Below are positions 2,793 through 31,485 of a stretch of DNA of 56,196 nt, in pieces. Made by a program: the position numbers and the translations under genes. Position 1 is the first letter of the stretch; every line of letters starts with the position of its first letter. The stretch covers positions 1 through 56,196 of the IMG/VR virus record IMGVR_UViG_3300046506_000485; one strand, 5' to 3'. The notes under the pieces are model-generated. The model ran no database searches. It was not told where the DNA came from and saw only the letters and a program-made list of their open reading frames with translations. This DNA is from a virus.

Positions 2793-2817
2793 CTCTGTGA
2801 CTGGATGGTGGCGTCCA
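2793..2817 (-). promoter_or_regulatory. Late-promoter element, copy f (lysis genes)
   Basis: Minus-strand AGTCACAGAG preceded by TGG twelve bases upstream, where most other copies have TTG. It lies just after the stop of the 161-aa gene and before the endolysin. It contains an ACTGGA/TCCAGT inverted repeat. One of nine copies described in the findings. Confidence 0.6.
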
Positions 2818-2820
2818 GTG

Positions 2821-3306
2821 TTATGCGGTGGGTGGCTCGACTGTTTCGGGTGTTTCGGCGGCCAGTGCCGGTGCGTTGAGCAAACCTGTCAGGCGCCGAA
2901 TTTCGGCTTGCTGAGTGTCGCTCTGCTTTTCGGCGGTCGCGGCGTCTGCGGCAAGTAGATCGTTAAGGCGTTGAATCTCTGTCTGCGCGGCCACCAGTTG
3001 CTCGGTCAGTGTCGCCGTGCTCGCCTGCTCAGATGCCAGCGCGTTCGACAGGTTCTGGTTCTCGATGATCGTCGCGGCATTAACCTCGCCCAGCACCTCG
3101 GAAAGCATTTCGCCCTCTTCGCCAGCGATCAGCGCCAGTTGCTCGGGCGAATTGATGTTTGTCGCGATCGGCACGCCGTCTTTGGTGGTCTGCGTGATCG
3201 TGGTGCGGGAGGCGCCAGTCAGCTTGCCTTTGTTCGGGGCGACATCACCAAAGCGCAGCAAGATTTCGTAGTTGAAGGTTTCTTCGTTGTATACGGGAGT
3301 AGGCAT
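2821..3306 (-). CDS. Tail-fibre-associated coiled-coil protein
   Basis: 161-aa protein, the last gene of the tail-fibre run. Residues about 1-60 are beta-like (NYEILLRFGDVAPNKG), then comes a Gln/Ala/Leu-rich coiled coil (about 85-145) and a Pro/Thr-rich tail. Its position after the fibre genes fits a fibre-assembly chaperone or fibre cap, but no family was recognised. Start ATG 3306 is preferred to an upstream in-frame start because it sits directly after the previous stop at 3309. Confidence 0.65.
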   Translation of the reverse strand: MPTPVYNEETFNYEILLRFGDVAPNKGKLTGASRTTITQTTKDGVPIATNINSPEQLALIAGEEGEMLSEVLGEVNAATIIENQNLSNALASEQASTATLTEQLVAAQTEIQRLNDLLAADAATAEKQSDTQQAEIRRLTGLLNAPALAAETPETVEPPTA

Positions 3307-3308
3307 GA

Positions 3309-3992
3309 TCAGCTCACTGTCGTTGTGGTGTTGAGGATTTGCCAAACCGTGCCGTTTGACCGGCAGCGCTTGGAGCCGCCATTGGCATTCGTGACATCAA
3401 TTTCATAGCCGCTATAGGCAGAAGCTGACGGGAGAGTGGTCAGGGTGAATTGCCCTACCCTAAAAGGCGCTGTAACCGTCGCATCGCCGCTCACGGCCAG
3501 AGCTGCAATTGTGGTCCTGCCAGTTGCCCGGCTAATTACCAAAGGCACACTGCCGTACGAGCTGTTGTCCTGATACCTGACGATGGAAAAGTCAGAGCCG
3601 ACGTTTGATCCTGACTCGGCATCAGCAGATTTGATTACCTGCCACCGCCTTGAGTTGCCGGTCTGGAAGGCTAGCGTTGATGCCTGACTAGCATCGGCGA
3701 TCAGGGTAAGCATGGCTGCGGCTGCTTGCCCGGCGCGTGTCAGGGTAAGGTCGCCACCTGCAACAGAGGCGCCGCCGGTGAATGCAGGACTCGCCAAGTT
3801 AGCCTTGAGATCTAGGGCGGCCTGTTGTGGCGCACTCACCGGCTTGACGTTGTCTGCAGTGTTGCTCGCCTGATCCAGCCCCACCATCGCCTTCGTGACC
3901 TGAACCCATGCGCTTGTTGCCTGTACCCACAAAAACTGCCCCGCCACGCTCGGCAGCGGGACCAGCTGTCCAAGCTGTCTGTTAGCCGTCAT
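3309..3992 (-). CDS. Tail fibre protein
   Basis: 227-aa Ala/Ser/Thr/Gly-rich protein. The segment near residues 55-80 (DLKANLASPAFTGG) is the repeat seen in phage tail-fibre proteins, and the C-terminal part (about 180-227) resembles a small receptor-binding head ending in VWQILNTTTTVS. Probably part of the host-recognition fibre outside the virion. It sits in a tight row of fibre genes spaced by 1-3 bases. Confidence 0.7.
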   Translation of the reverse strand: MTANRQLGQLVPLPSVAGQFLWVQATSAWVQVTKAMVGLDQASNTADNVKPVSAPQQAALDLKANLASPAFTGGASVAGGDLTLTRAGQAAAAMLTLIADASQASTLAFQTGNSRRWQVIKSADAESGSNVGSDFSIVRYQDNSSYGSVPLVISRATGRTTIAALAVSGDATVTAPFRVGQFTLTTLPSASAYSGYEIDVTNANGGSKRCRSNGTVWQILNTTTTVS

Positions 3993-3995
3993 AAA

Positions 3996-4706
3996 TCACC
4001 TGTCGAAGAGATAGCCGCGAACCCGAATCGTCAGGCCGCCGAGGGTAATGAGCCCGTTGAGGAAGTAGTTGAGCAGCTGGTTCCCGTTGACCTCGACGTC
4101 GTACTGGCCTGCCTGATTCGCTTTGACGAACAGGAGGAAGTTGGTCGTGGAGAGCGTTCCGTTGTCAGGAGTGCCGAGGTAGGCATCACTGGTCGATGTG
4201 TTGTCGATTAGCGTGTACATCAGGCGGCAGGTCATGGGGACGACAGTGGATGCGTCAACCAGAGTCGGAGCTGTGCCCGTTGCGACGTTGAGCAGGCGCG
4301 ACTGGGAGATTGCAGCGCCGCCCGGTGGGACGAAGCTAATCCGGTTGGCCCGGTCGCCCACCTGACTGTGCAGGAATGCCAGCGTCACGCCGCTTGCGTT
4401 GAAGTAGAGCGAGCCCAGATATCGGCGCGTCGGGTCATTGGATTTCGTGCGCGCCGTGCCCTGGTACGGATCGGCTGGAGCGGTGGCCGAGGCCTCGAAC
4501 TTGAGCACGCCGTCATCGTTGGCGATGTAGAAGTGTCGCCATGCGTTCGTCACGCCGGAGATCACCAAGCTCATGTCGCTCTGGGAGAGCGCGCGGCCTT
4601 GGTTCGGAATGTACGCAGCGCCCGGTGAAAGGCCAACCGTCACGCCGTCAGCCAAAACACTGAGCTTCAGCCCGACAATTCTTGCGTCGTTTACGTTATA
4701 GGCCAT
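3996..4706 (-). CDS. Tail fibre / baseplate-type structural protein
   Basis: 236-aa beta-rich protein beginning MAYNVNDARIVGLKL. It has the Ser/Thr/Gly/Asn-rich composition of phage adhesion proteins, no signal peptide and few charged helices. It is one base downstream of the 406-aa fibre protein and three bases upstream of the 227-aa one, so it is cotranscribed with both. Family not recognised; a virion fibre component is inferred from context. Confidence 0.65.
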   Translation of the reverse strand: MAYNVNDARIVGLKLSVLADGVTVGLSPGAAYIPNQGRALSQSDMSLVISGVTNAWRHFYIANDDGVLKFEASATAPADPYQGTARTKSNDPTRRYLGSLYFNASGVTLAFLHSQVGDRANRISFVPPGGAAISQSRLLNVATGTAPTLVDASTVVPMTCRLMYTLIDNTSTSDAYLGTPDNGTLSTTNFLLFVKANQAGQYDVEVNGNQLLNYFLNGLITLGGLTIRVRGYLFDR

Positions 4707-4707
4707 A

Positions 4708-5928
4708 TCACACCGTCACTATCGTGTTGTCGGCGACACGTACCCAGTTCGTGCCGTTGCTTACTACCACCCCTGCTCCGCCGGCCATGTTGGTGCACCA
4801 GCGTTGCTTGGCGAGGTTTGCAGATGCTGCGGGAAGACCTGCGACCGTGTACTGAAGCAGGGCGTCGTCTTGAGCCCTAAGCGCGCCGAGGACGACGACT
4901 GTCAGAACATCCCCTATCGCATCAGCACCAACTGCAAGCACCACGTTTGCACCATCGGTTGCCGTGTAGTCAGCCGGAGCGAGAACGGGACCTTTGAAGA
5001 ACGGGATAATTGCGCCTGCGGTGTAGCCGTTAGGGATGGCAAACGACGTCTGTCCAGCGGAAGTGGCTGCGATGTTTTCGATGCGGAAGACGTTGCCCGC
5101 TGGCAGATATGCAGCCGGGATCTTGCTGTCAGCGCCGAGAGGTGCAACGCCGTTGGCTGCACCAATCGCCGAGGTGCTGACCTTGCTGGAGTCGGAAGGC
5201 GTAATTACCGGCGTGCCATCCGCTTTGACGTAGTCCAAGACAAGCCAAGCAGTGGCGCTGATGGAAACGATTTTGATCCGATCGCGCGTCTTGCCGATGA
5301 TGTCGGCGCCGCCTGGAATGATCAGATTGCTGCTGTTTACGAGGGTGATACCGTCCGCGCCGAGAATCACCCATCGCTCAACGCCGCTATCGGGCGCAGG
5401 GCCAAACGAGGTGATGCTTGTGCCACCCCCTGGATCGACTTGGATGGTATTGGCGCCGGCCGATGCCGCACCAATGGTCGACGCAGTGAGGTTTACCCGG
5501 GCAATCGGGGCCTCGTTTATGGCGCCAGTCATTGTCCCGCCGGCGAGCGGCAGTTTCGTATTATCTGGAGCCGAAACCAGCGGCGATCCATCCTTTCGAT
5601 GGTAGTTGGTGCATTCCCAGTAGTTCTCGAAGCCTTCCGTGCCAATGCGGATGAATTCTGCCCAGTCGCCATTCTGCGTTGTGATGTTGGCGCCGGTCGG
5701 GAGAATGAAAGTCGTAGCGTTGTGCACGACTACCAGGCCGGCTACCGCGAATTTCACTCGCCGAGTGGTGCCTTTGGTGCTTCCGTAAAAGCCTGTGAAA
5801 TTGCTGCTGACCGAGGTGATGCGATAGGTGTTCGCGGGCTTATTGCTGTCCACTCTACCGTCAATGAAGACCTCGCCCGGCACGACATCAATGAAGGCCG
5901 CCTCGTCGATAGCGGCAACGTGCTTCAT
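4708..5928 (-). CDS. Tail fibre protein
   Basis: 406-aa protein rich in beta structure. It contains the fibre-type block NTKLPLAGGTMTGAI (about residues 125-140), a common trimerising repeat of tail fibres. The C-terminal third resembles a receptor-binding region. Its start overlaps the stop of the 240-aa gene (TAATG). Role inferred: distal host adhesion. Confidence 0.75.
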   Translation of the reverse strand: MKHVAAIDEAAFIDVVPGEVFIDGRVDSNKPANTYRITSVSSNFTGFYGSTKGTTRRVKFAVAGLVVVHNATTFILPTGANITTQNGDWAEFIRIGTEGFENYWECTNYHRKDGSPLVSAPDNTKLPLAGGTMTGAINEAPIARVNLTASTIGAASAGANTIQVDPGGGTSITSFGPAPDSGVERWVILGADGITLVNSSNLIIPGGADIIGKTRDRIKIVSISATAWLVLDYVKADGTPVITPSDSSKVSTSAIGAANGVAPLGADSKIPAAYLPAGNVFRIENIAATSAGQTSFAIPNGYTAGAIIPFFKGPVLAPADYTATDGANVVLAVGADAIGDVLTVVVLGALRAQDDALLQYTVAGLPAASANLAKQRWCTNMAGGAGVVVSNGTNWVRVADNTIVTV

Positions 5929-6650
5929 TACGCAACTACCGTTACGCGGTACTGCCCGGTCGTTGGAGCAACGCCAAATGTGAGCTGAACGGTATTCACG
6001 CCATTGGCGACCCAGTCAGCAATCACGCCAGCGTTCGACGTCACTTCTTTCACGCTCACCGACACGTCCTGAGTGCCAAGGTTGTGGGTGATCGTCAGAG
6101 TTGTAGCGGTGCCGTCGCCGATGGTGGCGCTGGCTTTGCGTGCCACAACGGCCGGATCAACCGCGATTACCCCAGCGTTCAGCGTGATGCCGTTACCTGC
6201 GGCGTATGAGGCGCCGCCACCGATCTGGGCAAATACAAGGGCCGTGGTGTTGAGGGTGATTGGCGCGTCCGTGGTTTGCAGCCAGATGCTGTTACCCAGC
6301 GTGGTGCCTTCACTGATGAAGGTCGCGGCGCCTACGGCTTCCGGCCCGGTATCCATGTCACTTGCGCGAGTCCAAGCGCCAGTCGCCGCAACGTAGATGC
6401 CGTTGGCTGATCCGGTCGTCTGGCTCTTCACCAGTACTCGGTCGCCAGCGATGATTGCCACGCCGTCGATGGTTTGGGCGCCGGAGAGCGTGATGTTCGC
6501 AGTAGTCGCGGCGCGGACTGGCGCTTTCCAGCTATAGCCCTGAATCGCCGCCTGCAACTGGGCGTAAGTAACCGCGTCCTGCTGATTGACGGCGTCCTTC
6601 AGGTTGATGAAGCCAAAGCCACTCGCGTCCAGCGTGTTGGTAATTTTCAT
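5928..6650 (-). CDS. Tail fibre protein, N-terminal adaptor type
   Basis: 240-aa protein whose N-terminus (NTLDASGFGFINLKDAV, then YAQLQAAIQGYSWKAPVRAAT) matches the attachment region of many phage tail fibres, where a long stem normally follows. Middle residues (about 60-145) carry the GDRVLVKSQTTGSANGIYV block. The C-terminus (about 170-240) is a small beta domain (THNLGTQDVSVSVKEV). The short length suggests the fibre is built from several small polypeptides. Confidence 0.8.
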   Translation of the reverse strand: MKITNTLDASGFGFINLKDAVNQQDAVTYAQLQAAIQGYSWKAPVRAATTANITLSGAQTIDGVAIIAGDRVLVKSQTTGSANGIYVAATGAWTRASDMDTGPEAVGAATFISEGTTLGNSIWLQTTDAPITLNTTALVFAQIGGGASYAAGNGITLNAGVIAVDPAVVARKASATIGDGTATTLTITHNLGTQDVSVSVKEVTSNAGVIADWVANGVNTVQLTFGVAPTTGQYRVTVVA

Positions 6651-6661
6651 GCGGGTCTACC

Positions 6662-6970
6662 TCAGTTTAAGTACGCCTTGCCTGCGTAGGCCGCGCCGTG
6701 AATGACTTGGATGATGTTTGCGTCGACGTACCGGATATCAGGCGTGATCACGCCGTCGAGCGAATCGACGACGGTCACTGATGGGTGCCGATTCAGGTTG
6801 TGCGGGATGGTCCAGACGCTCAGGGCTGATGCCTGCGTCCATGTGAATGTGCTGCTCGCGCCGGCGCCGGACTTGCCAGGTGCACCGCGCTGCCCCGCCA
6901 TGATCGTGAATGCGCCATTGCTGCTACGGCAGCAGCTCGATGATCCGCGCACAACGAATGCGGAGTTCAT
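6662..6970 (-). CDS. Small tail protein with short collagen-like stretch
   Basis: 102-aa protein. After a Ser/Cys-rich N-terminus comes GQRGAPGKSGAG, a short collagen-like Gly repeat, then a beta domain with HNLNRHPSV, a motif shared with phage fibre head domains. Start ATG 6970 overlaps the upstream stop (ATGA) with GAGG nearby. ATG 6901 (MAGQRG) would give a tidier protein but lacks a ribosome site. Likely a fibre component. Confidence 0.65.
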   Translation of the reverse strand: MNSAFVVRGSSSCCRSSNGAFTIMAGQRGAPGKSGAGASSTFTWTQASALSVWTIPHNLNRHPSVTVVDSLDGVITPDIRYVDANIIQVIHGAAYAGKAYLN

Positions 6971-7569
6971 CGAGTGACCTCGGCGCCGATCGTGACCTTG
7001 CTGATTGCGGTGATCGGATAGACGTCGCCGTCCGGGGTGATCAGTTCAAGGTCGTAGACGCCCTGCTTCCATGTGATCAGTGCGGTAACGGCGGGAGAAA
7101 GGCGCACGATCAGCGCCGCCAGCGCGACGTCAACTTCGATAGTGCCGTCTGCGCCGACCGAATCGCTGCTCAGCGAAAGCAGAATCTTATCGGTTCCACG
7201 GTCGCGGATCTGCATTCGGGCCGAGCAACCAGTGAGGTCGAATGGCCGGTTAAAGATCACTGAACCGCCAGAGGTGTAAGCGCGCCAGTTATCCGCGCGG
7301 ACGGCGTTCAGTTCGATGGTGTTCGCATCGACAAAGGAGGCGATGAAGGCCTGATCGTCCTGGGTGTTCAGCTCTTCCGGATGGCGAACGCCTTCAATGC
7401 TGATCGGCCAGCCATCAGGAATGCCGTGATTGGCGACACTCAGGCGAACCGGCGCAGTACTGGGCATGCCTGAAATTGGCGCGTACACCAGTTCGGAGTC
7501 GGCATAGCGATAGGCAAACTCGAAAGTCTTGCCTCGAACGATATTGATGTCGACGACGGGAGCGCCCAT
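6967..7569 (-). CDS. Tail/baseplate structural protein
   Basis: 200-aa protein, first gene of the tail-fibre transcription unit. It begins VDINIVRGKTFEFAYRY, a pattern I associate with small phage tail proteins that precede fibre genes, and is beta-rich with repeated Asp/Ser/Ile patterns. ATG 7569 has GGAG in range, and its leader contains GGAAATC/GATTTCC arms. The late-promoter element at 7597-7621 lies about 30 bases upstream. Confidence 0.7.
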   Translation of the reverse strand: MGAPVVDINIVRGKTFEFAYRYADSELVYAPISGMPSTAPVRLSVANHGIPDGWPISIEGVRHPEELNTQDDQAFIASFVDANTIELNAVRADNWRAYTSGGSVIFNRPFDLTGCSARMQIRDRGTDKILLSLSSDSVGADGTIEVDVALAALIVRLSPAVTALITWKQGVYDLELITPDGDVYPITAISKVTIGAEVTR

Positions 7570-7596
7570 GGAAATCTCCAGCGATTTCCGATGAGC

Positions 7597-7621
7597 CTAT
7601 GTGACTGGATTGGGTGGACAA
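7597..7621 (-). promoter_or_regulatory. Late-promoter element, copy b (tail-fibre unit)
   Basis: Minus-strand TTG, twelve bases, then AGTCACATAG. It directly follows a GC-rich hairpin that ends the preceding unit and lies about 30 bases upstream of ATG 7569. Confidence 0.75.
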
Positions 7622-7642
7622 GGGGATGTCACACCCCTCGCG
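7621..7642 (-). terminator. Weak terminator-like hairpin
   Basis: On the minus strand, after the stop at 7643, AGGGG pairs with CCCCT around an eight-base loop and is followed by TTG. The stem is short and the T-run poor, so its strength is uncertain. Confidence 0.4.
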
Positions 7643-7918
7643 TCAATTACACCGAATCTGCCGATTCTCGTAGCCATAGCTGTAGCAGTTCAGATTGCTG
7701 GGCGGTTGCGGCCGGATGATGATCGGACGCTGACGAACAGGTTCTGACTCCAGGCCGGCGTCAATCCGGGCGCGCTGGGCGGCTTTGCGCTTCGCCAATT
7801 CTTCCTGGCGCTGCTGCTCTCGGCCCATGGAGCTAGTGCTATCTGGAACGATAGTGAGGGTGCCAGCGGCGGAAATCCCTGAGGCGAGCATACAGGCCAG
7901 CAATAAGGCGATTTTCAT
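7643..7918 (-). CDS. Small exported protein
   Basis: 91-aa protein with a clear Sec signal (MKIALLLACMLASGISA, cleavage predicted near AG). The mature part is Arg/Gln/Glu-rich and ends with NCYSYGYENRQIRCN, whose two cysteines could form a disulphide. Start ATG 7918 is chosen because it begins the signal peptide; upstream in-frame starts would bury it. Last gene of the ejection-protein unit. A periplasmic protein made late in infection, function unknown. Confidence 0.75.
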   Translation of the reverse strand: MKIALLLACMLASGISAAGTLTIVPDSTSSMGREQQRQEELAKRKAAQRARIDAGLESEPVRQRPIIIRPQPPSNLNCYSYGYENRQIRCN

Positions 7919-7940
7919 TCCGTACGTCCTTGTGGCGAGG

Positions 7941-8177
7941 TCAGTGCCTAGCTTTGAATCCATCCACGACCCAGGAAAGGCCGATTGATACTGCATAAAT
8001 CAAGACGACTGGCGCCAGGCCAAACAGGCAGAAATCAGCAATTGGTGATGACCGCCCAATACTCATCGCAGCGACGATCACCAACCAAATCGCGGACAAA
8101 ACGAACCAAAGCCGGCGCATGCCAGCTCTGTACGATCGCTTGGGGTGAATGTCCCGCATGAATACCGGATCTCGCAT
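7941..8177 (-). CDS. Small membrane protein, two TM segments
   Basis: 78-aa protein with two predicted membrane spans (about residues 22-41, LWFVLSAIWLVIVAAM, and 49-70, FCLFGLAPVVLIYAVSIGL). Several in-frame ATGs exist (8177, 8159, 8120) and none has a strong ribosome site, so the start is uncertain. It lies between the ejection-protein gene and the exported-protein gene. It could be a membrane or superinfection-exclusion factor; that is speculation. Confidence 0.55.
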   Translation of the reverse strand: MRDPVFMRDIHPKRSYRAGMRRLWFVLSAIWLVIVAAMSIGRSSPIADFCLFGLAPVVLIYAVSIGLSWVVDGFKARH

Positions 8178-8199
8178 GAGGTCCGGTGCAGTCTAAACG

Positions 8200-12467: not shown

Positions 12468-12503
12468 TTTGGGTGCTCCGGATTAATACGTATGCCCCCA
12501 AAT

Positions 12504-12528
12504 CTATGTGACTAGACCGTTCGATCAA
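12504..12528 (-). promoter_or_regulatory. Late-promoter element, copy d (ejection-protein unit)
   Basis: Minus-strand TTG, twelve bases, then AGTCACATAG. The TTG overlaps the TGA stop of the 330-aa gene, so there is no terminator here; the element is placed directly at the gene border. It lies about 37 bases upstream of ATG 12467. Confidence 0.7.
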
Positions 12529-20961: not shown

Positions 20962-21008
20962 GATCAATTCCTCTTGAGGCTGCCGGACCATCGGCCCGGC
21001 GAGCGCGA

Positions 21009-22130: not shown

Positions 22131-22284
22131 GAGGGCAATTCCTATGAAGGTGGCTTTGTGGTTCTGGGTATGTCGCCACCCTTGCGAGGACAGGTTTGGA
22201 CGCTCCTGATGCGCTTGAATCGGTCAGCTTTACGCCCTGCTGGCGAAAGACACCGTGACTCGGTGAGCGAGCTGTATCGGGTAT

Positions 22285-22310
22285 GTCATCCACGTGGAAA
22301 GCTGGATGAC
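22285..22310 (-). other. Hairpin in the coat-gene leader
   Basis: GTCATCCA and TGGATGAC form a perfect 8-bp stem with a ten-base loop in the 235-base leader upstream of the coat gene. No T-run follows, so it is not a terminator. It may stabilise the message or act in translation control. Confidence 0.5.
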
Positions 22311-22344
22311 GTCCTTGTCCCGATGGCTACAGCAGTTACGAAAA

Positions 22345-22368
22345 TATGTGACTGGAACTTGCCGTCTA
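22345..22368 (-). promoter_or_regulatory. Late-promoter element, copy e (coat protein unit)
   Basis: Minus-strand AGTCACATAT preceded twelve bases upstream by TAG (the stop codon of the scaffold gene) where other copies carry TTG. It would produce the coat message with a leader of about 200 bases. Confidence 0.6.
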
Positions 22369-23307: not shown

Positions 23308-23335
23308 GATTTGCCCCTTTGGTATTCGGAAATTC

Positions 23336-23500: not shown

Positions 23501-25659
23501 GCTGGTACTCCTTCGATGGCTGGGGTTTCGATGCCTGCGTTCAGGCCGACGCCCGGATTTGCCGGCGTCAGTGGATTGGTGTTGGAAGGCGTTTGCGCTT
23601 CCAGGACTGTCCCGCTGTACTCTGGGACGATCGGCGCCGCGTCGTGATCTTTGTAATTCGAGGAAAGCAGGATTGCGTCGGCCAGGCTCGATACCGCCGG
23701 CTGCGATGCGATGACGCCCGCTGTCTGGATGGCTGAGTAGACTGATTCCACCGACTTGGCGACTGCCTCGGCGTTGACCAGATCGATTTGAGCCTGAGCC
23801 AGACCGATGCTTGCCTGCGCTTTCGCTGCCTCTGCCTGGGCTTTGGTGCCTTGAGCTGCCAGCAGGTCGGCTTTGGCCTGCAATGTCGGATCGACCGGAG
23901 CCGCCTGACGCTGTTGCTGCATGGCCTGGATGAGCTCTTGCTTGTTGGCAAGATTCGAGTAGCCGATGATGAATTCCCACGGAATCCCGGCGCCCTTCTC
24001 GTTCAGTTCGATGGCTTGCAGGAACTGGCTGTTCTCGAACGTGATCTGCGCCGGAGCCTCGGTGACGATGACGTCATATTCGCCGATGGTCAGGTCGTTG
24101 AGGATGCGCGCGTCCGACTGGGGCCAATTCAGCGGGATTTCCTGAGTGTTTTCCTGCCCATCCTGACCGGTTTCGGTGATGCGGATGATGCGCGGCTGGT
24201 CGTAGAACTGCTGGAACATCTCCAGCGTGCGACCGGCAAGCAAAGCGCGAGTGCGAGCAAGGTTGTCCAGCGGAACGGCCAATTGCTGCTGTGCGGCGAA
24301 CTGCCGGGTCTGGATGGCGATTCCTGAGACTTCGTTGCCTTGGTTGCCGGACATCGCCTCGTTCACGCCAGTAGACGATTCCAGCAGCGCGGAGGCGCGA
24401 TCAATGAAACGGTCGATACCACTCGGCACCTGATTGGGCTGGATCTTCTGGGGACGATCTTCGATTGCCGTCCCTTTCTTGATTACGATGTGCAGGCCTG
24501 TTTCAGAGCCGCGATCTGCCAGCTCATCGTCATTCATGTTCGCAAGGGTGCCGGCAACACTCGTCCAGCCGCTGTTCGCCATGGTGCTGATCGAGTGCAG
24601 GAACGAGCTCATCGACTTGTTGAGCAACTGTTGCGGGCCGATAGCGTCATCCACCAGGCCGCGAGTCTTGCCGCGACGGAATGTCGGGAAGAATGGGATA
24701 ACCGTGAAGTGATTGAACGGCGACCAGTCGTCGTGCAGCACCTTGTCCTTGGTGGTGATCAGCCAGCGAACACGCTTGACCGTGCGCTTCTGCCGAACAC
24801 CGCCGGCCGCGATCATGTCGGCGATTGCTTCCGGCTTGGTGCCTTCGATGACGCGGATGTCACCGGTGGCAGTGATGATCACGTCGCACTTGCTCATCTG
24901 CCAGTACTGACGGTCTATGACACGGATACGCCTGCCGGACTTGTCGTCGCCTTCAAGATTCGCGTAGCCGGAGAACATCGAGTCGTCATCCCCGAACGAA
25001 TTGCGGTCGTCGTCGATGATCTCGGAGCCGAACACTTCGCCAGACAGCTCTTCTTCGCTGATTGATTCCTTGGCCTTGGTGCCGTACAGAACTTCGATTT
25101 CGATCTCGGTTAGCAGGCGGCTGATAGTGACGTCCGCCCAGCCGTCCGGGTCGTAGGAATTCGCGTCTGGGTCAGGGATGACGTCCATCGGGTCCAGTAC
25201 GTCGATGGCGATTTCACCCAGGATCGTGTCGGCATACGACATGCGCAGATCGTAGAAGCCGCGCTGCTGGATCAGGCCGTCGCGGAACACCTCACTTTCC
25301 TTGAAGTGCAGTTGCGTGTTGTCAGACACCTGCATGGCGAGCTTCGACAGTGTTGTCGCAGTCGCAGCATCAGCGGCGCCAGATCGCGGACGAAAGCCCA
25401 TGTCCATCCGATTGCCGATCTGATAGCCCGCGGCGGCATTGACCTTGTTCTTGATCTGGTTGAACTCGAGCGCGGGGCGGCCAGACTGCGCCATCACCTG
25501 ACGGTCGATCTCTGTCCACTGACAGCCACCGCCCAGGTAGAAGTCCTCGCAGATGCGGGCCTGCATGATGTAATCGCTATGGCCGCGGCGCATCCCGTAT
25601 TCATAACGGCTCCAGTTCTCCGCAGCACGCTGGCTATCTGTCGCTTTAGGTTCAGCCAT
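23497..25659 (-). CDS. Portal protein, P22-like
   Basis: About 720 aa, matching the roughly 725-aa length of P22 gp1. The N-terminus has YIMQARICEDFYLGGGCQW, and blocks PALEFNQIKNKVNAAAGYQ, IDVLDPMDVIPDPDANSYD and SPFNHFTVIPFFPTFR are typical of P22-type portals. The C-terminal 150 residues are an Ala/Gln helical barrel segment. It forms the dodecameric DNA gate at one vertex. ATG 25659 follows the terminase stop by one base; GTG 25668 is an alternative start that overlaps terminase. Confidence 0.9.
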   Translation of the reverse strand: MAEPKATDSQRAAENWSRYEYGMRRGHSDYIMQARICEDFYLGGGCQWTEIDRQVMAQSGRPALEFNQIKNKVNAAAGYQIGNRMDMGFRPRSGAADAATATTLSKLAMQVSDNTQLHFKESEVFRDGLIQQRGFYDLRMSYADTILGEIAIDVLDPMDVIPDPDANSYDPDGWADVTISRLLTEIEIEVLYGTKAKESISEEELSGEVFGSEIIDDDRNSFGDDDSMFSGYANLEGDDKSGRRIRVIDRQYWQMSKCDVIITATGDIRVIEGTKPEAIADMIAAGGVRQKRTVKRVRWLITTKDKVLHDDWSPFNHFTVIPFFPTFRRGKTRGLVDDAIGPQQLLNKSMSSFLHSISTMANSGWTSVAGTLANMNDDELADRGSETGLHIVIKKGTAIEDRPQKIQPNQVPSGIDRFIDRASALLESSTGVNEAMSGNQGNEVSGIAIQTRQFAAQQQLAVPLDNLARTRALLAGRTLEMFQQFYDQPRIIRITETGQDGQENTQEIPLNWPQSDARILNDLTIGEYDVIVTEAPAQITFENSQFLQAIELNEKGAGIPWEFIIGYSNLANKQELIQAMQQQRQAAPVDPTLQAKADLLAAQGTKAQAEAAKAQASIGLAQAQIDLVNAEAVAKSVESVYSAIQTAGVIASQPAVSSLADAILLSSNYKDHDAAPIVPEYSGTVLEAQTPSNTNPLTPANPGVGLNAGIETPAIEGVPA

Positions 25660-25660
25660 G

Positions 25661-27199
25661 TCAGGCACTCATCGCAGATTTGGCGGAATTTCGGCGCATT
25701 AATTCGGCCTTCCAATTCGGGGTGTGTTGATCGTCAGCAGCAACAGGTTCGGCGAATGTCAGCGCCAGGGCATCGCCGTCGTCCGGAGAGCGGCCAATGT
25801 GCTTCTTGGCCTCTTCTTTCGGGACGAGCTTGAGCTGACCGTTGCTGGTGTATTTGTCTTTGGCGACGGACGTCAGATCGCCATGCAGGCGGTCGTCGTC
25901 AGGAATGCTTGGGGTGATGTCGCTGTGAATCCACTCGGCCATTTCGCCCCACATTTCGCAGCGCTTGTTGAAGTACTTGCGGGAATCGGAGGCGGAAGAG
26001 CCGAAGTTCACGGCAGTGACGCGGTCGCCGAAACCCATCTCGACCAGACGGTCATACACGCCTGCGCCTATACCGCCGATGTCGATGAACATCATGCGGA
26101 TGGTCTTGTCATCGGTGAGCATGCGAGCGGCCTGACCGGCAACCGCCATGGTGTCCGGGACGTTGTTACGCTCGATGCCCCACGCTGCCCGACCTTGGCG
26201 ATGGATGAACGTGGAGGTATCGCCGCCGCGTGCAGGGTCGAGGCCGACGACGTGCGCGCCGATGCGCTGAATGTGTTTGAGCAGCTGCTTGCGGGCCAGA
26301 GACACCTTGATGGTGTTGATCAGCGGCTTATGGCCGATCTTCTGGAATGCCAGATCAGGCGTGGCCGGGTATTCCTGATTGAACCAGTCAAGGTCGCCGG
26401 CGAAGTCGGTCGCAATCTTCGCCGCGCGCCATGCCATCTGCTCTTCGTCCAGGTCGTACGCTTCCATGTACGCCATGTCATCTTCGGACAGGTCGAAGCC
26501 TTTCGGCACTGCTCGGCGATAGCCTTTCTCAACGAACCATGGAATGAACACGGCCATGAAGTCGGACTGACCGGACATGGCAAGCGTCCACATCTGGTGC
26601 GAGAGGTGAGCAATACCATTGCCGGTCGTTTCGAGGATGATTTCGCTGTCTTCGACCATCGGCACGGTTTGGCCGAGACCCGCCATGATCTGCTGAGCGT
26701 TGGCCCAGAACGCGAACTCGGAGCCGTGCAGCATCTGGATGGCGTCAGATCGACCTGCGTGCTTGCTGCCTGCCGTGGCTACCTTGTATCCGCTGCGCAG
26801 TTTGGCGAACGAGAGCTCAGTGCCAGAGTTGGCCTTGATGGCCGGGCGCAGGGTGCTGTCGCTGAGCTCGAAGAATGTCTTCGCCATGCCGAACAGGGTT
26901 TGTGTCGCCGCGTCCAGGTGCGTGAGGATCATGGTGCGCTTGCCGAACCCCATGCTGGTGCGCTTGTAGAAGCGACCCGACACATAGGTGCTGATGCCTT
27001 GCTGACGACCCTTGAGGACGATTGCTCGAACCCAGCCCTTCTCTTCCTTCTGCGCTTCAAGGCGGGCATGAAGGATGCGCTGCGCCTCATTCCACACGAA
27101 CGGCAGAACCTTGCCCTCTTTCGTACGGATCTTCAGATTGCGCGCGCAGTAAAGCTCATCGTCGCTGATGAGCTGGGAGAGCATGGCGTCGGCTGACAT
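25661..27199 (-). CDS. terL: Terminase large subunit
   Basis: 512-aa packaging motor ATPase/nuclease. Walker A-like GRQQGIST lies at residues 64-71, the Walker B end at about 157-161 (LHGSE), and a coupling motif LETTGNG near 189-195. The RNase H-like nuclease part carries D321 (GLDPARGGD) and D373 (FIDIGGIGAG), with a late DDGDALALT block. It pumps DNA through the portal and cuts concatemers. It follows a 58-aa gene by three bases and lies about 2 kb from the small subunit, an unusual separation. Confidence 0.95.
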   Translation of the reverse strand: MSADAMLSQLISDDELYCARNLKIRTKEGKVLPFVWNEAQRILHARLEAQKEEKGWVRAIVLKGRQQGISTYVSGRFYKRTSMGFGKRTMILTHLDAATQTLFGMAKTFFELSDSTLRPAIKANSGTELSFAKLRSGYKVATAGSKHAGRSDAIQMLHGSEFAFWANAQQIMAGLGQTVPMVEDSEIILETTGNGIAHLSHQMWTLAMSGQSDFMAVFIPWFVEKGYRRAVPKGFDLSEDDMAYMEAYDLDEEQMAWRAAKIATDFAGDLDWFNQEYPATPDLAFQKIGHKPLINTIKVSLARKQLLKHIQRIGAHVVGLDPARGGDTSTFIHRQGRAAWGIERNNVPDTMAVAGQAARMLTDDKTIRMMFIDIGGIGAGVYDRLVEMGFGDRVTAVNFGSSASDSRKYFNKRCEMWGEMAEWIHSDITPSIPDDDRLHGDLTSVAKDKYTSNGQLKLVPKEEAKKHIGRSPDDGDALALTFAEPVAADDQHTPNWKAELMRRNSAKSAMSA

Positions 27200-27202
27200 G
27201 GG

Positions 27203-27379
27203 TTACTGGGCTGCCTTGAATGGGGCTACGGTAACAACGTAATGCTTACCGGCGAACTCCAATGGCAGCGTCGCCGAGTTAGCACCCATGCCAAGCACAT
27301 GTCGAACGACCTCTTGTGCGGCAGCACCCACGCGGGCGTTATCTGCGTTCAACGCTGCGCAAGCCTTTTCTTCGCTCAT
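27203..27379 (-). CDS. Small protein upstream of terL
   Basis: 58-aa protein starting MSEEKACAALNADNARVG and ending three bases before the terminase start codon. Helical first half, then a beta stretch (GKHYVVTVAPFK). GGGGCAGGGC lies just before ATG 27379, and late-promoter copy a is about 45 bases further upstream, making this the first gene of the terL-portal-scaffold unit. Function unknown. Confidence 0.75.
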   Translation of the reverse strand: MSEEKACAALNADNARVGAAAQEVVRHVLGMGANSATLPLEFAGKHYVVTVAPFKAAQ

Positions 27380-27420
27380 GCCCTGCCCCTATCCCGATTA
27401 TCGAAATGACAGAGGCGAGG

Positions 27421-27445
27421 CTATGTGACTGGATTCGTTGTGCAA
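27421..27445 (-). promoter_or_regulatory. Late-promoter element, copy a (terL-portal unit)
   Basis: Minus-strand TTG, twelve bases, then AGTCACATAG. It lies only a few bases after the terminator at 27453-27480, so transcription must restart here for the terL unit. Confidence 0.8.
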
Positions 27446-27452
27446 CAGGCGT

Positions 27453-27480
27453 AAAAAAGCCCGCTGCGGGGCGGGCTTCT
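27453..27480 (-). terminator. Rho-independent terminator
   Basis: Minus-strand AGCCCGC/GCGGGCT stem followed by TTTTTTAC, directly after the stop at 27495. It closes the one-gene unit of the 125-aa protein. Confidence 0.9.
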
Positions 27481-27494
27481 GATTGCCGATCAGG

Positions 27495-27872
27495 TCACTG
27501 GACTAACCCGAGCTTCTTCGCTGCTTCGTACAGGTCTTCGCTCAATTGGTCATCGAACTGCGGATCGCGCACGAACGAATGGGTCATACATTCGATCATT
27601 TCGCCGTCGTGCAGCTGCATGCCATCGTCCCGGATGTAGTTGATGGACGGATGGTCTTTGTATGAAGCCGTTCCGATTCGCTGGTATTCGTCATCAAAGC
27701 GTTTCGCCGCATCACTGGTGTCAGTGCCGTCGAACAGCGAGTCGGGAAGCTGCTTACGGTTCGGCTCTCGCTCTTGGTAGGCGGCTGCCCATCCTTCCAG
27801 CGTCTCCAGCGACGGAAGTGGATCATCGCTGCTGTAGCGCCCGCCGTGCTGGTCTGTGATTACGTAGCTCAT
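27495..27872 (-). CDS. Hypothetical acidic protein (own cassette)
   Basis: 125-aa protein starting MSYVITDQHGGRYSSDDPLPSLE, with AGGGG before ATG 27872. Acidic, with no membrane segment or Cys motif; DGEMIECMTHSFVRDPQFDDQL near the end looks like a small alpha/beta fold. It is a complete unit: late-promoter copy g upstream, terminator downstream. Not recognised. The ORF extends further upstream, but only across the promoter. Confidence 0.7.
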   Translation of the reverse strand: MSYVITDQHGGRYSSDDPLPSLETLEGWAAAYQEREPNRKQLPDSLFDGTDTSDAAKRFDDEYQRIGTASYKDHPSINYIRDDGMQLHDGEMIECMTHSFVRDPQFDDQLSEDLYEAAKKLGLVQ

Positions 27873-27912
27873 GTCATGCCCCTGATGTGATTGTCGAATA
27901 ACACCATCAACG

Positions 27913-27937
27913 GTCTGTGACTGGCACCAATCTGCAA
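27913..27937 (-). promoter_or_regulatory. Late-promoter element, copy g
   Basis: Minus-strand TTG, twelve bases, then AGTCACAGAC. It lies a few bases after the terminator at 27943-27970 and about 45 bases before ATG 27872. Confidence 0.75.
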
Positions 27938-27942
27938 GCACA

Positions 27943-27970
27943 AAAAAGCCCGATCAATGCCGGGCTTTTT
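27943..27970 (-). terminator. Rho-independent terminator (near symmetric)
   Basis: AAAAAGCCCG pairs with CGGGCTTTTTT around an eight-base loop, with T-runs in both directions. It ends the unit of the exported 99-aa protein on the minus strand. Confidence 0.9.
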
Positions 27971-27997
27971 CATGTCAGCCCGAAGGCTCAGTATTTT

Positions 27998-28297
27998 TTA
28001 AACTGGCTGGCTGCCGTCGACGTCCGGCTGAGCCTGGATTGCCGTGAAGACCAGGCCACCGCTGGACGCGTGCATGTCAGAGCGAGTAGTACGAGATTCA
28101 CTGGCGACATCGTGCTGCCACTGGATCAGTGCCAGTTCGCGCACCACCTTGGCGGTTGCCGACTCGTAGCCACCGATGAACACGTGGCCGCCAGTCTCGG
28201 CATAGGTGAAGTGGTGCGGCTCAGGCGATGCGGCAGCGTAGCCACACGACAGGGCCATGGCGAAGGCGATGCACAGGAAAGATCCGATTCGTTTCAT
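27998..28297 (-). CDS. Exported hypothetical protein (own cassette)
   Basis: 99-aa protein with a Sec signal peptide (MKRIGSFLCIAFAMALSCGYAAA, cleavage near ASPEP). The mature part is about 75 residues, with HVFIGGYESATAKVVRELALIQWQHD as a compact helix region. GGAG precedes ATG 28297. It is a promoter-gene-terminator cassette with late-promoter copy h. A periplasmic protein made late in infection; function unknown. Confidence 0.75.
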   Translation of the reverse strand: MKRIGSFLCIAFAMALSCGYAAASPEPHHFTYAETGGHVFIGGYESATAKVVRELALIQWQHDVASESRTTRSDMHASSGGLVFTAIQAQPDVDGSQPV

Positions 28298-28352
28298 AGG
28301 TGAGGCTCCGATTGATTGGCGAGGCGAGATTTCGTTATCAGGAGCCTTGAGA

Positions 28353-28377
28353 GTTTGTGACTGGCAAGGGATTGCAA
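28353..28377 (-). promoter_or_regulatory. Late-promoter element, copy h
   Basis: Minus-strand TTG, twelve bases, then AGTCACAAAC. It abuts the terminator at 28382-28411 and lies about 60 bases upstream of ATG 28297. Confidence 0.7.
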
Positions 28378-28381
28378 CAAA

Positions 28382-28411
28382 TAAAAAGCCCAGCTGGTTA
28401 AGGGCTGGGCT
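28382..28411 (-). terminator. Rho-independent terminator
   Basis: Minus-strand AGCCCAGC/GCTGGGCT with a nine-base loop, followed by TTTTTAT. It closes the operon that starts at the holin. Confidence 0.9.
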
Positions 28412-28417
28412 TGGAAT

Positions 28418-28798
28418 TCATTTCATCTTCGGCGGATCTGGTAGCGGCTGCCAGTGCGTAACCATCAATATCTCGCCACCCTCATCGCGGAACAGACCGT
28501 CGCCATTGTGCGAGGCGATGCGCTGATTCCCAGCGTAGTAAATGAGGACATCGGTGTGCGGCTTTGGCGGCCCGAACTTCGCGTCCTGCCATCGCTCGTA
28601 ATCGCTGAAGTCAAACAGCCTGGACATAGCGACCTTCAATCTGTCGTCATCTTCGACGTACTCGACGATCAGGTCGTTGTCGCACTGCTTGAGGAACATG
28701 CCAATTTCGGTCAGACCTATCTGCTCGCGATCTGCGTCGGGCGAGTTGAGGCGGTCTTTAATCAATTGCGTGAGATTGGGTGTGTCGGTGGTTTTCAT
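28418..28798 (-). CDS. DUF551-like protein
   Basis: 126-aa protein. The C-terminal 60 residues (KPHTDVLIYYAGNQRIASHNGDGLF then THWQPLPDPP) match the DUF551 pattern, where a conserved W-x-PLP-x-PP motif ends the domain. Many phages carry such proteins; their role is not known. The first half is acidic and helical. ATG 28798 has GAGG in range. Last gene of the holin-TerS operon. Confidence 0.75.
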   Translation of the reverse strand: MKTTDTPNLTQLIKDRLNSPDADREQIGLTEIGMFLKQCDNDLIVEYVEDDDRLKVAMSRLFDFSDYERWQDAKFGPPKPHTDVLIYYAGNQRIASHNGDGLFRDEGGEILMVTHWQPLPDPPKMK

Positions 28799-28805
28799 GC
28801 GTACC

Positions 28806-28976
28806 TCAATCAACTATCGCCAGTGGCCAGATTGTACGCGCAATCTCCAGCGCCTCATCGCGAGAAACATCCTCCATCACAATCATAGGAAACGGTGCGT
28901 GACGAGGCGTCGTGACGGTACAGTTCTTTTTGCGCGCCACGATTGCTGAAGGTGGGGTTTCGTGGCGCGGGGTCAT
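28806..28976 (-). CDS. Small hypothetical protein
   Basis: 56-aa protein (MTPRHETPPSAIVARKKN...). Start ATG 28976 overlaps the upstream stop (ATGA), the main support for the gene. The N-terminal 30 residues are basic and Pro/Thr-rich, the rest a short acidic helix (SRDEALEIARTIWPL). Not recognised. Confidence 0.6.
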   Translation of the reverse strand: MTPRHETPPSAIVARKKNCTVTTPRHAPFPMIVMEDVSRDEALEIARTIWPLAIVD

Positions 28977-29218
28977 TTGGCTCTGCGCCCATCCTGATGC
29001 CAGTAGTAAGCATGGCAATCAACCTCGCCACCGCACTCGGTGCACACGTAGCGCTTGCCAAACTTCTTGGCTTCCTGCCCTGGCGCCTCTACGAATTCAT
29101 GGTAGCCGCAAGCATTCAGCTTCTTGCTGTTAGCTTGGACCTGCAGCGCAATCTCGCGCAGCTCAGGCGACTTGATGTTCATCACGCCGGCGAGGATGTC
29201 GAAGTTTGATTTGCTCAT
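28973..29218 (-). CDS. Small zinc-ribbon-like protein
   Basis: 81-aa protein with a helical N-terminal half. C-x2-C and C/H residues in CTECGGEVDCHAYYWH (about residues 59-74), with Cys37 further upstream, suggest one metal site. It overlaps the TerS stop (ATGA) and the next gene start (ATGA), so it is translated in chain. It could assist packaging or bind nucleic acid; inference only. Confidence 0.7.
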   Translation of the reverse strand: MSKSNFDILAGVMNIKSPELREIALQVQANSKKLNACGYHEFVEAPGQEAKKFGKRYVCTECGGEVDCHAYYWHQDGRRAK

Positions 29219-29841
29219 CCCTTCACCTCCATCAGACGCGCAAGGCGGTCTTCGTAGGATTCTTCAGATGACCCTTCATCGATGCCGTAAGCCTGACGCT
29301 CAAGCGCGATCAGCACACGCAAAGTCTCGCTCAGGTCCTTGCTCATCTTTACCCGGCCAGGCAGCGACAGAGCGCCACGGAAGGCTTGCTGCATCTTCTC
29401 GTAAGCGTCCGACGTCTCGTCTTTGGATTCCTCGACACCAGCAATCAGGTCGCGCAGTTGCTCGAACAGTTCGCGGTTGTCGGTCATGGCCTCCAGCTCT
29501 TCCATCATCTTCAGCGCGAGACGGCGGTTGCGACCTATATCACCGCGATGAGCCATGCGGATGTCAGCAATTGCCTGAGCGTTTGCGTCGATGATATTTC
29601 GGTCTGAAACAGCACGGTTCGCTGTTACAGCTTCTGTTACAGCCTGTCGTGTTACAAGATCGTCTGCCTTCGCTTTGATCTTGGCGGACAGGTCTTGCAC
29701 CCATCCGAACTTCTTGGCGCGTCGAGCGATAGCTACGTGGTTCGCACCCGGGCATGCGCTTGATATCTCACGCAGAGAGAGGACACCAGCCCTGTAGTGG
29801 CTTTCAATCAGCTCCCAGTCTGGAGCGGCGTTGTTGGTCAT
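29215..29841 (-). CDS. terS: Terminase small subunit
   Basis: 208-aa DNA-recognition subunit of the packaging motor. The N-terminal 50 residues form a helix-turn-helix (SLREISSACPGANHVAIARRAKKFGW). The middle is a long coiled coil (about 60-150), probably the oligomerising core, and the C-terminal part would contact TerL. Overlaps its neighbours by ATGA on both sides. About 2 kb and two independent gene cassettes separate it from terL. Confidence 0.85.
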   Translation of the reverse strand: MTNNAAPDWELIESHYRAGVLSLREISSACPGANHVAIARRAKKFGWVQDLSAKIKAKADDLVTRQAVTEAVTANRAVSDRNIIDANAQAIADIRMAHRGDIGRNRRLALKMMEELEAMTDNRELFEQLRDLIAGVEESKDETSDAYEKMQQAFRGALSLPGRVKMSKDLSETLRVLIALERQAYGIDEGSSEESYEDRLARLMEVKG

Positions 29842-30281
29842 TGCACACCAGCCCCATCAAGCGATGTCAGGCGAATCTGCCCACCTGTATAGGCGTCACG
29901 CTTAGCCGCAAGCTCGACAGCCTCCTTGGCCGTTGCGCCCATATCCATGGCAGCCAGTGCGAAGTCTCGACCGCTACCTGTAGCGAATGGACGCTCTGAC
30001 CAAACCTCGTCGACCCAAAACCCGCTCTCAGCGTCATGTCCTATCTGATAGAGCTTTCCATTGGTGATGACAACACCGCTTGCCTCAAGTGGTTTGTCGC
30101 TTAGCTTCAGGCCAAGGTACTCATCCATCAACGCAGGGAAATCACAACCCGAGCCAGTGAACAGAAAGCGATGCCCTTCCCTGTAGATCAGCTTCTCGAA
30201 ATCGTCATGGTCAATGAGCGATCCGCGAGTGACACGCGAGTCATAGGCGATCACGCCGTCTTTGTAGGCGATGGTGGTCAT
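29838..30281 (-). CDS. HslV/proteasome-like Ntn hydrolase
   Basis: 147-aa protein of the HslV (proteasome beta) fold. Thr2 after the initiator Met is the expected N-terminal nucleophile, and Asp14 and Lys30 (precursor numbering) align with HslV Asp17 and Lys33. ATGSGRDFALAAMDMGATAKEAVELA corresponds to the GSGG-nyAlaAA block. It is about 25 residues shorter than HslV. The gene is next to terS. It could act as a peptidase in virion maturation or host takeover; no unfoldase is encoded nearby. Confidence 0.8.
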   Translation of the reverse strand: MTTIAYKDGVIAYDSRVTRGSLIDHDDFEKLIYREGHRFLFTGSGCDFPALMDEYLGLKLSDKPLEASGVVITNGKLYQIGHDAESGFWVDEVWSERPFATGSGRDFALAAMDMGATAKEAVELAAKRDAYTGGQIRLTSLDGAGVQ

Positions 30282-30563
30282 TCAGACGGCCTCGTAAGTC
30301 GCTTCGAAGATGTCCGGCTTGCAGGGGTAGAACTCACCCTTCACACCCCTGATGATCCAATCGCCACAATCGGCGGCCATCTCACCTTCCAGGGTTTGAA
30401 TTCTCAGCCCATTGAGCGCGATAGAATTCGCGTACTGGTCCCAGTAAGCGGAACCCACACCCTTTAGGTCGGGAGTACCACTGATGAATTCGGTTACCGC
30501 GAACAGGTTGAGCCCATTCCACTTGATGGCATCAATGACGACCGGCTTCTTTCTGAATTTCAT
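30282..30563 (-). CDS. Conserved phage protein of unknown function
   Basis: 93-aa protein. It starts MKFRKKPVVIDAIKWNG and ends WIIRGVKGEFYPCKPDIFEATYE, the hallmark termini of a widespread small phage family of unknown role. Its stop abuts the HslV-like start without overlap. No signal peptide or enzyme residues visible. Confidence 0.8.
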   Translation of the reverse strand: MKFRKKPVVIDAIKWNGLNLFAVTEFISGTPDLKGVGSAYWDQYANSIALNGLRIQTLEGEMAADCGDWIIRGVKGEFYPCKPDIFEATYEAV

Positions 30564-30590
30564 TGCGCACTGCTCCCGTGCTTGATGTGA

Positions 30591-30950
30591 TTACCACTTC
30601 CACAGCGAGCGCAAAGGCCTCGCCATGTTTCCGCGATTGACCACGCAGATGTAGGTGATGCAGAACGTGTAAACGACGAGGCCGAGTTCGGCGTAGGCGC
30701 TCAACTGATCGAACTTGGAGGCGCCCTGGAAGAACATGTAGCCGGATGAGGACGCCAGCAGGATTGCCAGCGCGGTCGCCCGCATGTTGGTGCGCGCGCC
30801 ATTCATGTACGAGACGATCGACCAGACCGTAATCACGTTCATGGTCAACCGAAGGGAAAGGCAGGCCGGGCCGTACCAGAACTTGATGAACGTGACCATC
30901 GGTGCCATGTGTAAGGCCATCAAGTCGTACCAGCTCGTTTCACTGACCAT
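30591..30950 (-). CDS. Membrane protein (possible second holin)
   Basis: 119-aa protein with three or four hydrophobic segments (about residues 15-35, 38-50, 57-78, 85-106). Its start overlaps the holin-like gene by eleven bases, and similar paired membrane genes often encode holin and antiholin. Without a family match that is only suggestive. A short charged C-terminus (RPLRSLWKW) is typical of holins. Confidence 0.6.
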   Translation of the reverse strand: MVSETSWYDLMALHMAPMVTFIKFWYGPACLSLRLTMNVITVWSIVSYMNGARTNMRATALAILLASSSGYMFFQGASKFDQLSAYAELGLVVYTFCITYICVVNRGNMARPLRSLWKW

Positions 30951-31347
30951 CGTCGCCTCTCTTTAGAATTGGAATTCTGTTCAAGATGTTGGACAGCCAT
31001 TGCGGAAGCGGAGCGTCGTTGCGAACGGTCAGATTGAGGGCACCGATGATTGCAGCCGCAAGTGCTGAAATGAGGATCGCGACTGGCATTGCCCAGGCAG
31101 CCCAGTTGACGGACTGTCCAAGCGCTGAGCCTGTTGCGTATCCAGCTCCCCATGAAGCAATCAAAAGTGAAATCTTGCGTAGTGTCTGTTCGAAGCCTGT
31201 GCCCTTTTGCGGGTCTGGAAAGGCCAGGAAGAAGAAGCAGCCGAATGACGCACCACTGGCGGCACCTGGATGGAGTTGTTCAACCACGCTCCATACCCAC
31301 AGAGCGAGGATCAGCCAGATCGACCCTGCACCATGAGGGTCATTCAT
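30940..31347 (-). CDS. Holin, LydA-like
   Basis: 135-aa membrane protein starting MNDPHGAGSIWLILALWVWS, with three to four transmembrane segments and a basic/polar C-terminal tail (LNRIPILKRGDDGQ). The pattern resembles LydA-type holins of P1-like and Pseudomonas phages, which permeabilise the inner membrane for endolysin release. An upstream ATG at 31368 would add seven residues. First gene of the late operon driven by copy c; the endolysin and spanins are 28 kb away. Confidence 0.7.
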   Translation of the reverse strand: MNDPHGAGSIWLILALWVWSVVEQLHPGAASGASFGCFFFLAFPDPQKGTGFEQTLRKISLLIASWGAGYATGSALGQSVNWAAWAMPVAILISALAAAIIGALNLTVRNDAPLPQWLSNILNRIPILKRGDDGQ

Positions 31348-31431
31348 TTTCCAGCACCGTAAAGTCATGTTTTCTCATCGCTGGCCTCGGGCTCGCCCGG
31401 CTACTGCTGTCCGGATCTCATAACAGCGAGA

Positions 31432-31456
31432 CTATGTGACTGGATTGCCAGTACAA
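31432..31456 (-). promoter_or_regulatory. Late-promoter element, copy c (holin-terS operon)
   Basis: Minus-strand TTG, twelve bases, then AGTCACATAG, the strongest match together with copies a and b. It also contains ACTGG/CCAGT arms. It lies back-to-back with copy i on the other strand. Confidence 0.8.
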
Positions 31457-31459
31457 CCC

Positions 31460-31485
31460 TTGCGGCGCTTGAGTCAGTCACATGC
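31460..31485 (+). promoter_or_regulatory. Late-promoter element, copy i (plus strand)
   Basis: Plus-strand TTG, thirteen bases, then AGTCACATGC, 31 bases before ATG 31517. It is the only copy on this strand and stands before the only plus-strand gene of the late half. Confidence 0.65.

Follow-up and report, generated by a model that had tools for sequence, protein, structure and literature searches.

Late promoters with a candidate spacer operator appear to form a dispersed regulon in a lambda-like temperate phage

Introduction

Late gene control in the well-studied temperate phages follows one of two plans, a single antiterminated operon, as in lambda and P22, or a dispersed regulon, as in P1, P2, and Mu. 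The viral contig IMGVR_UViG_3300046506_000485 (56,196 bases, all of which was analyzed and is called the window here) belongs to a lambda-like temperate phage, and its late gene units are headed by copies of a two-part element, TTG-N12-AGTCACA. What kind of promoter is this element, and which protein reads it? An earlier reading of the letters alone (the original prediction) had listed nine copies, a to i, as a family of late promoters with a spacing foreign to sigma-70. The family is confirmed below, the spacing is reinterpreted, and a phage helix-turn-helix (HTH) protein is put forward as the likely factor acting on these promoters in trans.

A Repeat Family of the Late Region

All nine predicted copies were found in the window at the proposed positions and on the proposed strands (Table 1), each lying between genes or starting on the preceding gene's stop codon. 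The predicted variants on the -35 side are likewise present: copies a, b, c, d, g, and h have TTG-N12 and copy i has TTG-N13, and TTG is replaced by TGG in f and by TAG in e. Bare AGTCACA is only mildly enriched, with 10 occurrences in the window against a shuffle mean of 5.6 (13 of 300 shuffles reach 10). The tenth of these, at 2516-2522 on the minus strand within the endolysin gene, has no TTG and no downstream T and probably arose by chance. The full element behaves differently. TTG-N12/13-AGTCACA is observed seven times where dinucleotide shuffles give 0.19, a count reached in none of 300 shuffles, and among all 7-mers in the TTG-N12/13 context AGTCACA ranks first, with seven copies to three for the runner-up. 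A loose search with two mismatches shows no excess (40 observed versus 38.8), indicating that the signal resides in the exact element. The original prediction had stated that a similar density in random or early sequence would speak against it; beyond the shuffles, the early half of the window (31486-56196) contains no copies of the element.

The family is real and is conserved at orthologous positions in more than 15 related phages. Relatives were retrieved through the portal protein, and the named ones come mostly from Pseudomonas. In these relatives, copies precede TerL and follow the portal gene, and two divergent copies mark the border of the early and late regions. Each of 16 related phage records holds 4-11 sites of the form TTG-N12-AGYCACA, on the transcribed strand save for single divergent copies in a few, and a reversed control pattern finds 0 matches in all 16. 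Two 6.3 Mb host genomes were scanned as well; one has 8 matches and the other 13, and in each case 6 fall on the prophage contig.

Five Paracidovorax relatives (L078-L080, L087, and L088, with portals about 50% identical) yielded neither the AGTCACA family nor a shared word of the form TTG-7mer-nAnnnT, and F116 and Acidovorax phage AP1 have no homologue of the HTH protein and no comparable motif family. In a collection of viral sequences, a pattern with 15 fixed bases matched at least 50 stretches, with no known family carrier among the matches listed, and these may be chance matches; a stricter pattern matched 30 stretches, mostly on records already known as family members. The sequence AGGGACATAGCGT is present in ten other viral contigs, in which no HTH matches were found, and in the stretch L158, examined more closely, it overlaps the end of a CI-like gene in antisense orientation.

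Promoter Anatomy

The element was resolved with a logo of 101 non-identical N12 sites aligned on AGTCACA or its variants AGCCACA and AGGGACA, selection being made only on TTG and the 7-mer. Immediately after the 7-mer, these sites have T in 81% (-12), A in 94% (-11), and T in 100% (-7), with weak preferences between. Of 123 sites, 63% have TAnnnT at that single offset, compared with 0-1% at any other, and in the window all nine hexamers have T as their last base (p about 7e-7). The spacer between TTG and TAnnnT is 16 bp with N12 and 17 bp with N13. Sigma-70 promoters are recognized by hexamers 16-18 bp apart with T at -12, A at -11, and T at -7, and the sites have all of these. The -35 element is minimal, consisting of TTG and often extended to TTGC or TTGAC, while the 7-mer spans -19 to -13 within the spacer. 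It forms part of an extended asymmetric consensus, aTYC-AGTCACA, that runs from about -23 to -13 and abuts the -10. Close orthologues of promoter i retain its N13 spacing, giving a 17 bp spacer with TGnnnT as the -10. Judged by base pattern, then, each element is a sigma-70-type promoter with a fixed candidate operator in its spacer.

This anatomy explains why the spacing had seemed not to match sigma-70. The original prediction took AGTCACA for the -10, when the true -10 is the next six bases; the operator was mistaken for the hexamer. An alternative sigma factor reading AGTCACA as its -10 was considered and rejected, as the sigma-70 signature sits in the hexamer after it. With a canonical spacer of 16-17 bp, no alternative sigma-like factor is required, so that of the two agents once proposed, a phage activator or a sigma-like factor, only the activator persists, as the best reading. 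The remark that the phage has no RNA polymerase of its own agrees with the proteins scanned, which include no RNA polymerase or sigma factor, some small open reading frames being left unscanned. A single-subunit phage polymerase was likewise discarded, with none among the scanned proteins and a largest open reading frame outside the late region of about 565 amino acids.

Consensus sigma-70 promoters are absent from the late 33 kb (window 1-33500, covered by two overlapping scans), against an expectation from shuffling of about five for each half scanned. The inferred transcription start lies a median of 33 nt ahead of the first start codon.

A Candidate Regulator Encoded by the Last Early Gene

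The last early gene encodes an HTH protein of 120 amino acids, the likely trans factor of the late promoters to judge from its distribution and its sequence. The gene is present in 18 of 18 relatives whose locus covers its position. More distant homologues with 46-66% identity occur in seven further phages (L107-L113), six of which have sites of the TTG-N12-AGTCACA-TAgcgT type, some of them near the HTH gene; in L111 a single N13 site was found, and its genomic copy L155 has a tandem pair. In L113, the portal is just 25% identical to that of the window and both the HTH gene and the motif are kept, indicating that this pair crosses structural lineages. In the short prophages L147, L148, and L155, the HTH start codon is directly preceded by a tandem AGTCACA-N11-AGTCACA-TA, pointing to possible self-control.

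The protein belongs to no Pfam family, has one weak PHROG match to an HNH-endonuclease region (E 0.006), and matches no antitermination family in Pfam or PHROG. An AlphaFold model of its core has a beta hairpin followed by the HTH, with W27-M35 of the core as the predicted recognition helix, and the alignment contains a single conserved cysteine (C60). A tblastn search of the INPHARED phages returned no homologues, and an order-wide search matched only in an already known Pseudomonas genome.

Additional forms of the protein exist in other prophages. In the short prophages L155 (G002:C29) and L154/L156, AGTCACA sites flank an additional HTH paralogue of reduced length, with the helix LHWKTLKT or LGWQALKM. 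More distant relatives of the LKWETVRKRR type adjoin terminase-like genes in L151, L152, and L153, where no motif family was found.

Coupled Change of Motif and Recognition Helix

Natural variation also links the protein and the sites. Four relatives (L060, L061, L074, and L075) have AGCCACA at the promoter sites that were recovered. Among the 16 related records there is no mixing, with three, scanned whole, having AGCCACA only (25 sites) and 13 AGTCACA only (73 sites). The helix is IKWNTVKMRR in the AGCCACA phages versus LKWQTVKMRR in all close relatives with AGTCACA, and the AGCCACA clade nests within the AGTCACA group with a support of 0.99. In the distant phage L150 (TerL 72% identical), AGGGACA is found at six sites, five with TTG at N12 or N13 and the sixth with none, and the recognition helix is LCWETAKKRR. 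As judged from these alignments, the 7-mer changed across the whole regulon together with the predicted recognition helix in two lineages. An exception to this coupling is L144, with the helix LGWQALKMRR and an AGTCACA site.

Proposed Mechanism and Competing Explanations

Overall, the best explanation, and a probable one, is that the HTH protein activates late promoters of the host polymerase through the spacer operator. The host sigma-70 holoenzyme would read the minimal -35 TTG and minimal -10 TAnnnT, 16-17 bp apart, and the HTH protein would bind the operator through its LKWQTVKMRR helix and activate, rather than affect in some other way, promoters that are otherwise weak. The late units would all start together once early transcription arrives at the HTH gene. 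The transcript of promoter i would run back toward the end of that gene, perhaps serving feedback or early shut-off. Spacer-bound activation of weak sigma-70 promoters would account for the poor hexamers, for timing by the last early gene, and for the many promoters.

Several observations weigh against this explanation. The switch to AGCCACA is one event in four close relatives and that to AGGGACA is found in one phage, leaving two independent switches. In L143/L147, S replaces Q in the helix, yet AGTCACA is kept, and L149 has a Q-type helix with a single plausible site (L149:3460, TTG-N13), indicating that helix residue and motif do not correspond one to one. The HTH proteins of AGCCACA and AGTCACA phages also differ at several other residues, and an 88-amino-acid protein encoded next to the HTH gene differs at many columns in the AGCCACA phages. 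Confidence in the AlphaFold core is moderate (predicted local distance difference test score 78), and fold searches with both models gave no significant PDB match, with the I-TevI DNA-binding domain appearing at E 6-7. Six new records with the strict motif yielded no HTH gene, their coverage of the early region being unchecked. Finally, an intrinsic terminator (2771-2754, minus) stands between promoter f and the endolysin gene.

That terminator bears on a Q-like scheme, in which the HTH protein would bind a Q-binding element (QBE) embedded in constitutive promoters, of which there are many, and make polymerase resistant to terminators. Promoter f with its terminator resembles lambda pR'/tR', the element at -19 to -13 occupies the zone of the phage 21 QBE subsites (PMC6606751), and the HTH gene closes the early operon, as Q usually does. 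This scheme is nonetheless unlikely. A -10-like pause element is absent at any fixed downstream distance (TAnnnT 0-1% at every offset), most sites run straight into a gene without a leader terminator, and at h, g, and a the terminators precede the promoters instead of following them. Many promoters would be redundant under Q-like control, and the HTH protein matches no Q family. A combined version, somewhat less probable still, would have an undescribed factor family act at an extended -10, activating initiation and then staying on polymerase past terminators, with a few helix residues shifting the specificity of the regulon; the similarity that this family shows is a weak one to HNH-endonuclease DNA-binding regions.

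It is rather improbable that the element is a repressor operator silencing the late promoters in the lysogen or in early infection. The stoperators of cluster A mycobacteriophages are likewise asymmetric, transcription-oriented intergenic repeats (PMC9283540), a protein on the spacer could block polymerase, and tandem operators stand at the HTH gene's own promoter. A stoperator would not need the fixed spacing to -35 and -10 that every site has, the promoters are so far from consensus that they appear to need help and not repression, and the gene for the HTH factor closes the early operon and does not lie beside CI.

There is a small chance that the DNA-binding factor is instead the 88-amino-acid plus-strand protein or a host protein, the HTH gene being a bystander. 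The 88-amino-acid gene is found in the same 18 close relatives and in 6 more distant loci, with the differences in AGCCACA phages described above, but the protein was not detected in L113 and L111, which retain the HTH gene and AGTCACA sites. It has no family match, and there is little reason to expect that the specificity of a host factor would shift with the phage lineage. That the elements are non-promoter repeats, i.e., module-boundary or recombination sequences, fits their place at the borders of gene units but is scarcely credible given the invariant -10 T/A/T and -35 TTG positions, the concerted base change across the sites of a phage, and the tandem copy at the start of the HTH gene.

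Layout of the Late Units and Neighboring Genes

Table 1. Promoters of the family and landmark genes in the window
Feature	Position	Strand	Sequence	Context
Promoter c	31432-31456	-	TTG-N12-AGTCACA-TAGTCT	opens late region (holin, HslV-like peptidase, TerS)
Promoter i	31460-31488	+	TTG-N13-AGTCACA-TGCACT	divergent; heads 88-amino-acid gene toward end of HTH gene
Promoter h	28350-28377	-	TTG-N12-AGTCACA-AACTCT	directly after intrinsic terminator
Promoter g	27910-27937	-	TTG-N12-AGTCACA-GACCGT	directly after intrinsic terminator
Promoter a	27418-27445	-	TTG-N12-AGTCACA-TAGCCT	precedes TerL unit, directly after terminator
Promoter e	22341-22368	-	TAG-N12-AGTCACA-TATTTT	precedes major capsid gene; long conserved leader
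Promoter d	12501-12528	-	TTG-N12-AGTCACA-TAGATT	-35 overlaps upstream gene's stop codon; orthologues found
Promoter b	7594-7621	-	TTG-N12-AGTCACA-TAGGCT	orthologues found
Promoter f	2790-2817	-	TGG-N12-AGTCACA-GAGCCT	precedes endolysin; weakest copy
HTH protein, 120 amino acids	31780-32142	-		last early gene; candidate AGTCACA reader
88-amino-acid conserved protein	31517-31783	+		probably driven by i; tail-to-tail with HTH gene, against early direction
DnaB-like replication gene	37352-38692	-		
O-like replication gene	38689-39681	-		
CI-like repressor	40736-41539	+		

The late genes that follow the HTH gene encode a holin, an HslV-like peptidase, TerS, TerL, portal, capsid, a DNA-transfer-type protein, tail or fibre proteins, endolysin, and spanin. 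The divergent pair c and i is kept in relatives. Promoters h, g, and a each have an intrinsic terminator whose end nearly touches the -35, which indicates that transcription restarts there, as the original prediction had proposed. Promoter a has an orthologous site at about 8050 in relatives. Promoters d and e start on the stop codon of the gene before them and probably add to through-transcription; the counterparts of e in relatives have TTGAC as the -35. The hairpin equivalent to the terminator after f begins within the -10 hexamer in the related stretch L181, so that a transcript from there would lack the 5' arm of the hairpin. The idea of a repeated late-promoter regulon in place of one antiterminated operon is supported. 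The label P22-like once attached to the phage is a loose one, with portal and TerL falling in a Pseudomonas/Paracidovorax group and the portal weakly similar to F116.

Relatives show strong conservation of the capsid leader after promoter e (window 22285-22310 and onward to about 22130, minus). Its hairpin GTCATCCA...TGGATGAC reads GTCACCCA...TGGGTGAC in L060, which suggests a paired RNA element; Rfam gave no matches, the capsid leader included. An HslV-family peptidase gene (29838-30281, minus) lies inside the late region. Directly upstream of the HTH gene, 32226-33371 (minus) encodes a GcrA-like region and a Holliday-resolvase/DUF1064-like region in one protein; it was rejected as the regulator, with only a 17-residue match in one relative. 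The plus strand carries the integrase and recombination genes, as well as cargo genes resembling queuine tRNA-ribosyltransferase and phosphoadenosine phosphosulfate reductase (48411-49136 and 49400-50263).

Comparison with Known Systems and Significance

A search of open-access full text for AGTCACA together with promoter and phage returned unrelated papers only; subscription journals are largely uncovered by it, and an earlier description is possible. The closest known systems each differ from this one in at least one tested feature, and as far as tested the phage belongs to none of the P1 Lpa, Mu C, P2 Ogr, or Q systems.

In phage P1, one small activator, Lpa, serves 11 dispersed late promoters of the host polymerase, each with a conserved operator (PMC10695390). 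The likeness lies in dispersed late promoters with operators that replace a single antiterminated operon. The P1 operator is a 9-bp inverted repeat, whereas here an asymmetric element of 7-11 bp sits against the -10 and TTG is retained; AGTCACA is not palindromic, and the logo has no conserved second arm. The HTH protein has no match among families of known activators in Pfam and PHROG, Lpa itself not being directly aligned. Phage Mu C is a single phage protein that activates four sigma-70 late promoters with poor -10 and -35 elements (PMC4461284), and it binds upstream of or over the -35, unlike the spacer operator beside the -10 seen here. Phage P2 Ogr is a small activator of four dispersed late promoters with the motif TGT-N12-ACA (PMC3931495). 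Ogr is a zinc finger of the form CX2CX22CX4C, whereas the HTH protein lacks that motif, and the DNA motifs also differ.

The Q proteins of phage 21 and lambda share with the candidate an operator at the same place between -35 and -10, an HTH factor, and a gene at the end of the early region; in phage 21, the QBE subsites were mapped with substitutions at -21 and -13 (PMC6606751). The differences are the many promoters, the lack of a downstream pause element, the general lack of a leader terminator, and the lack of a Q-family match. Cluster A stoperators are likewise asymmetric repeats with a fixed orientation that lie in short gaps between genes (PMC9283540), but they are repressor sites without obligatory promoter elements; independence from such elements is not seen here, where 101 N12 sites share an unselected T at -7.

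This phage adds a dispersed late regulon in a lambda-like layout; its candidate regulator fits no known family, and the candidate operator is unusually placed. The natural changes among AGTCACA, AGCCACA, and AGGGACA with matching helices offer a view of how a factor and at least four sites per phage could reach a new specificity together, and this joint shift should be testable with a handful of proteins and promoters. The element also provides a simple sequence rule for annotating the late units of related prophages. As far as tested, the system is like P1 Lpa in its logic and like the Q sites of lambda and phage 21 in the position of its operator, and it is a member of neither.

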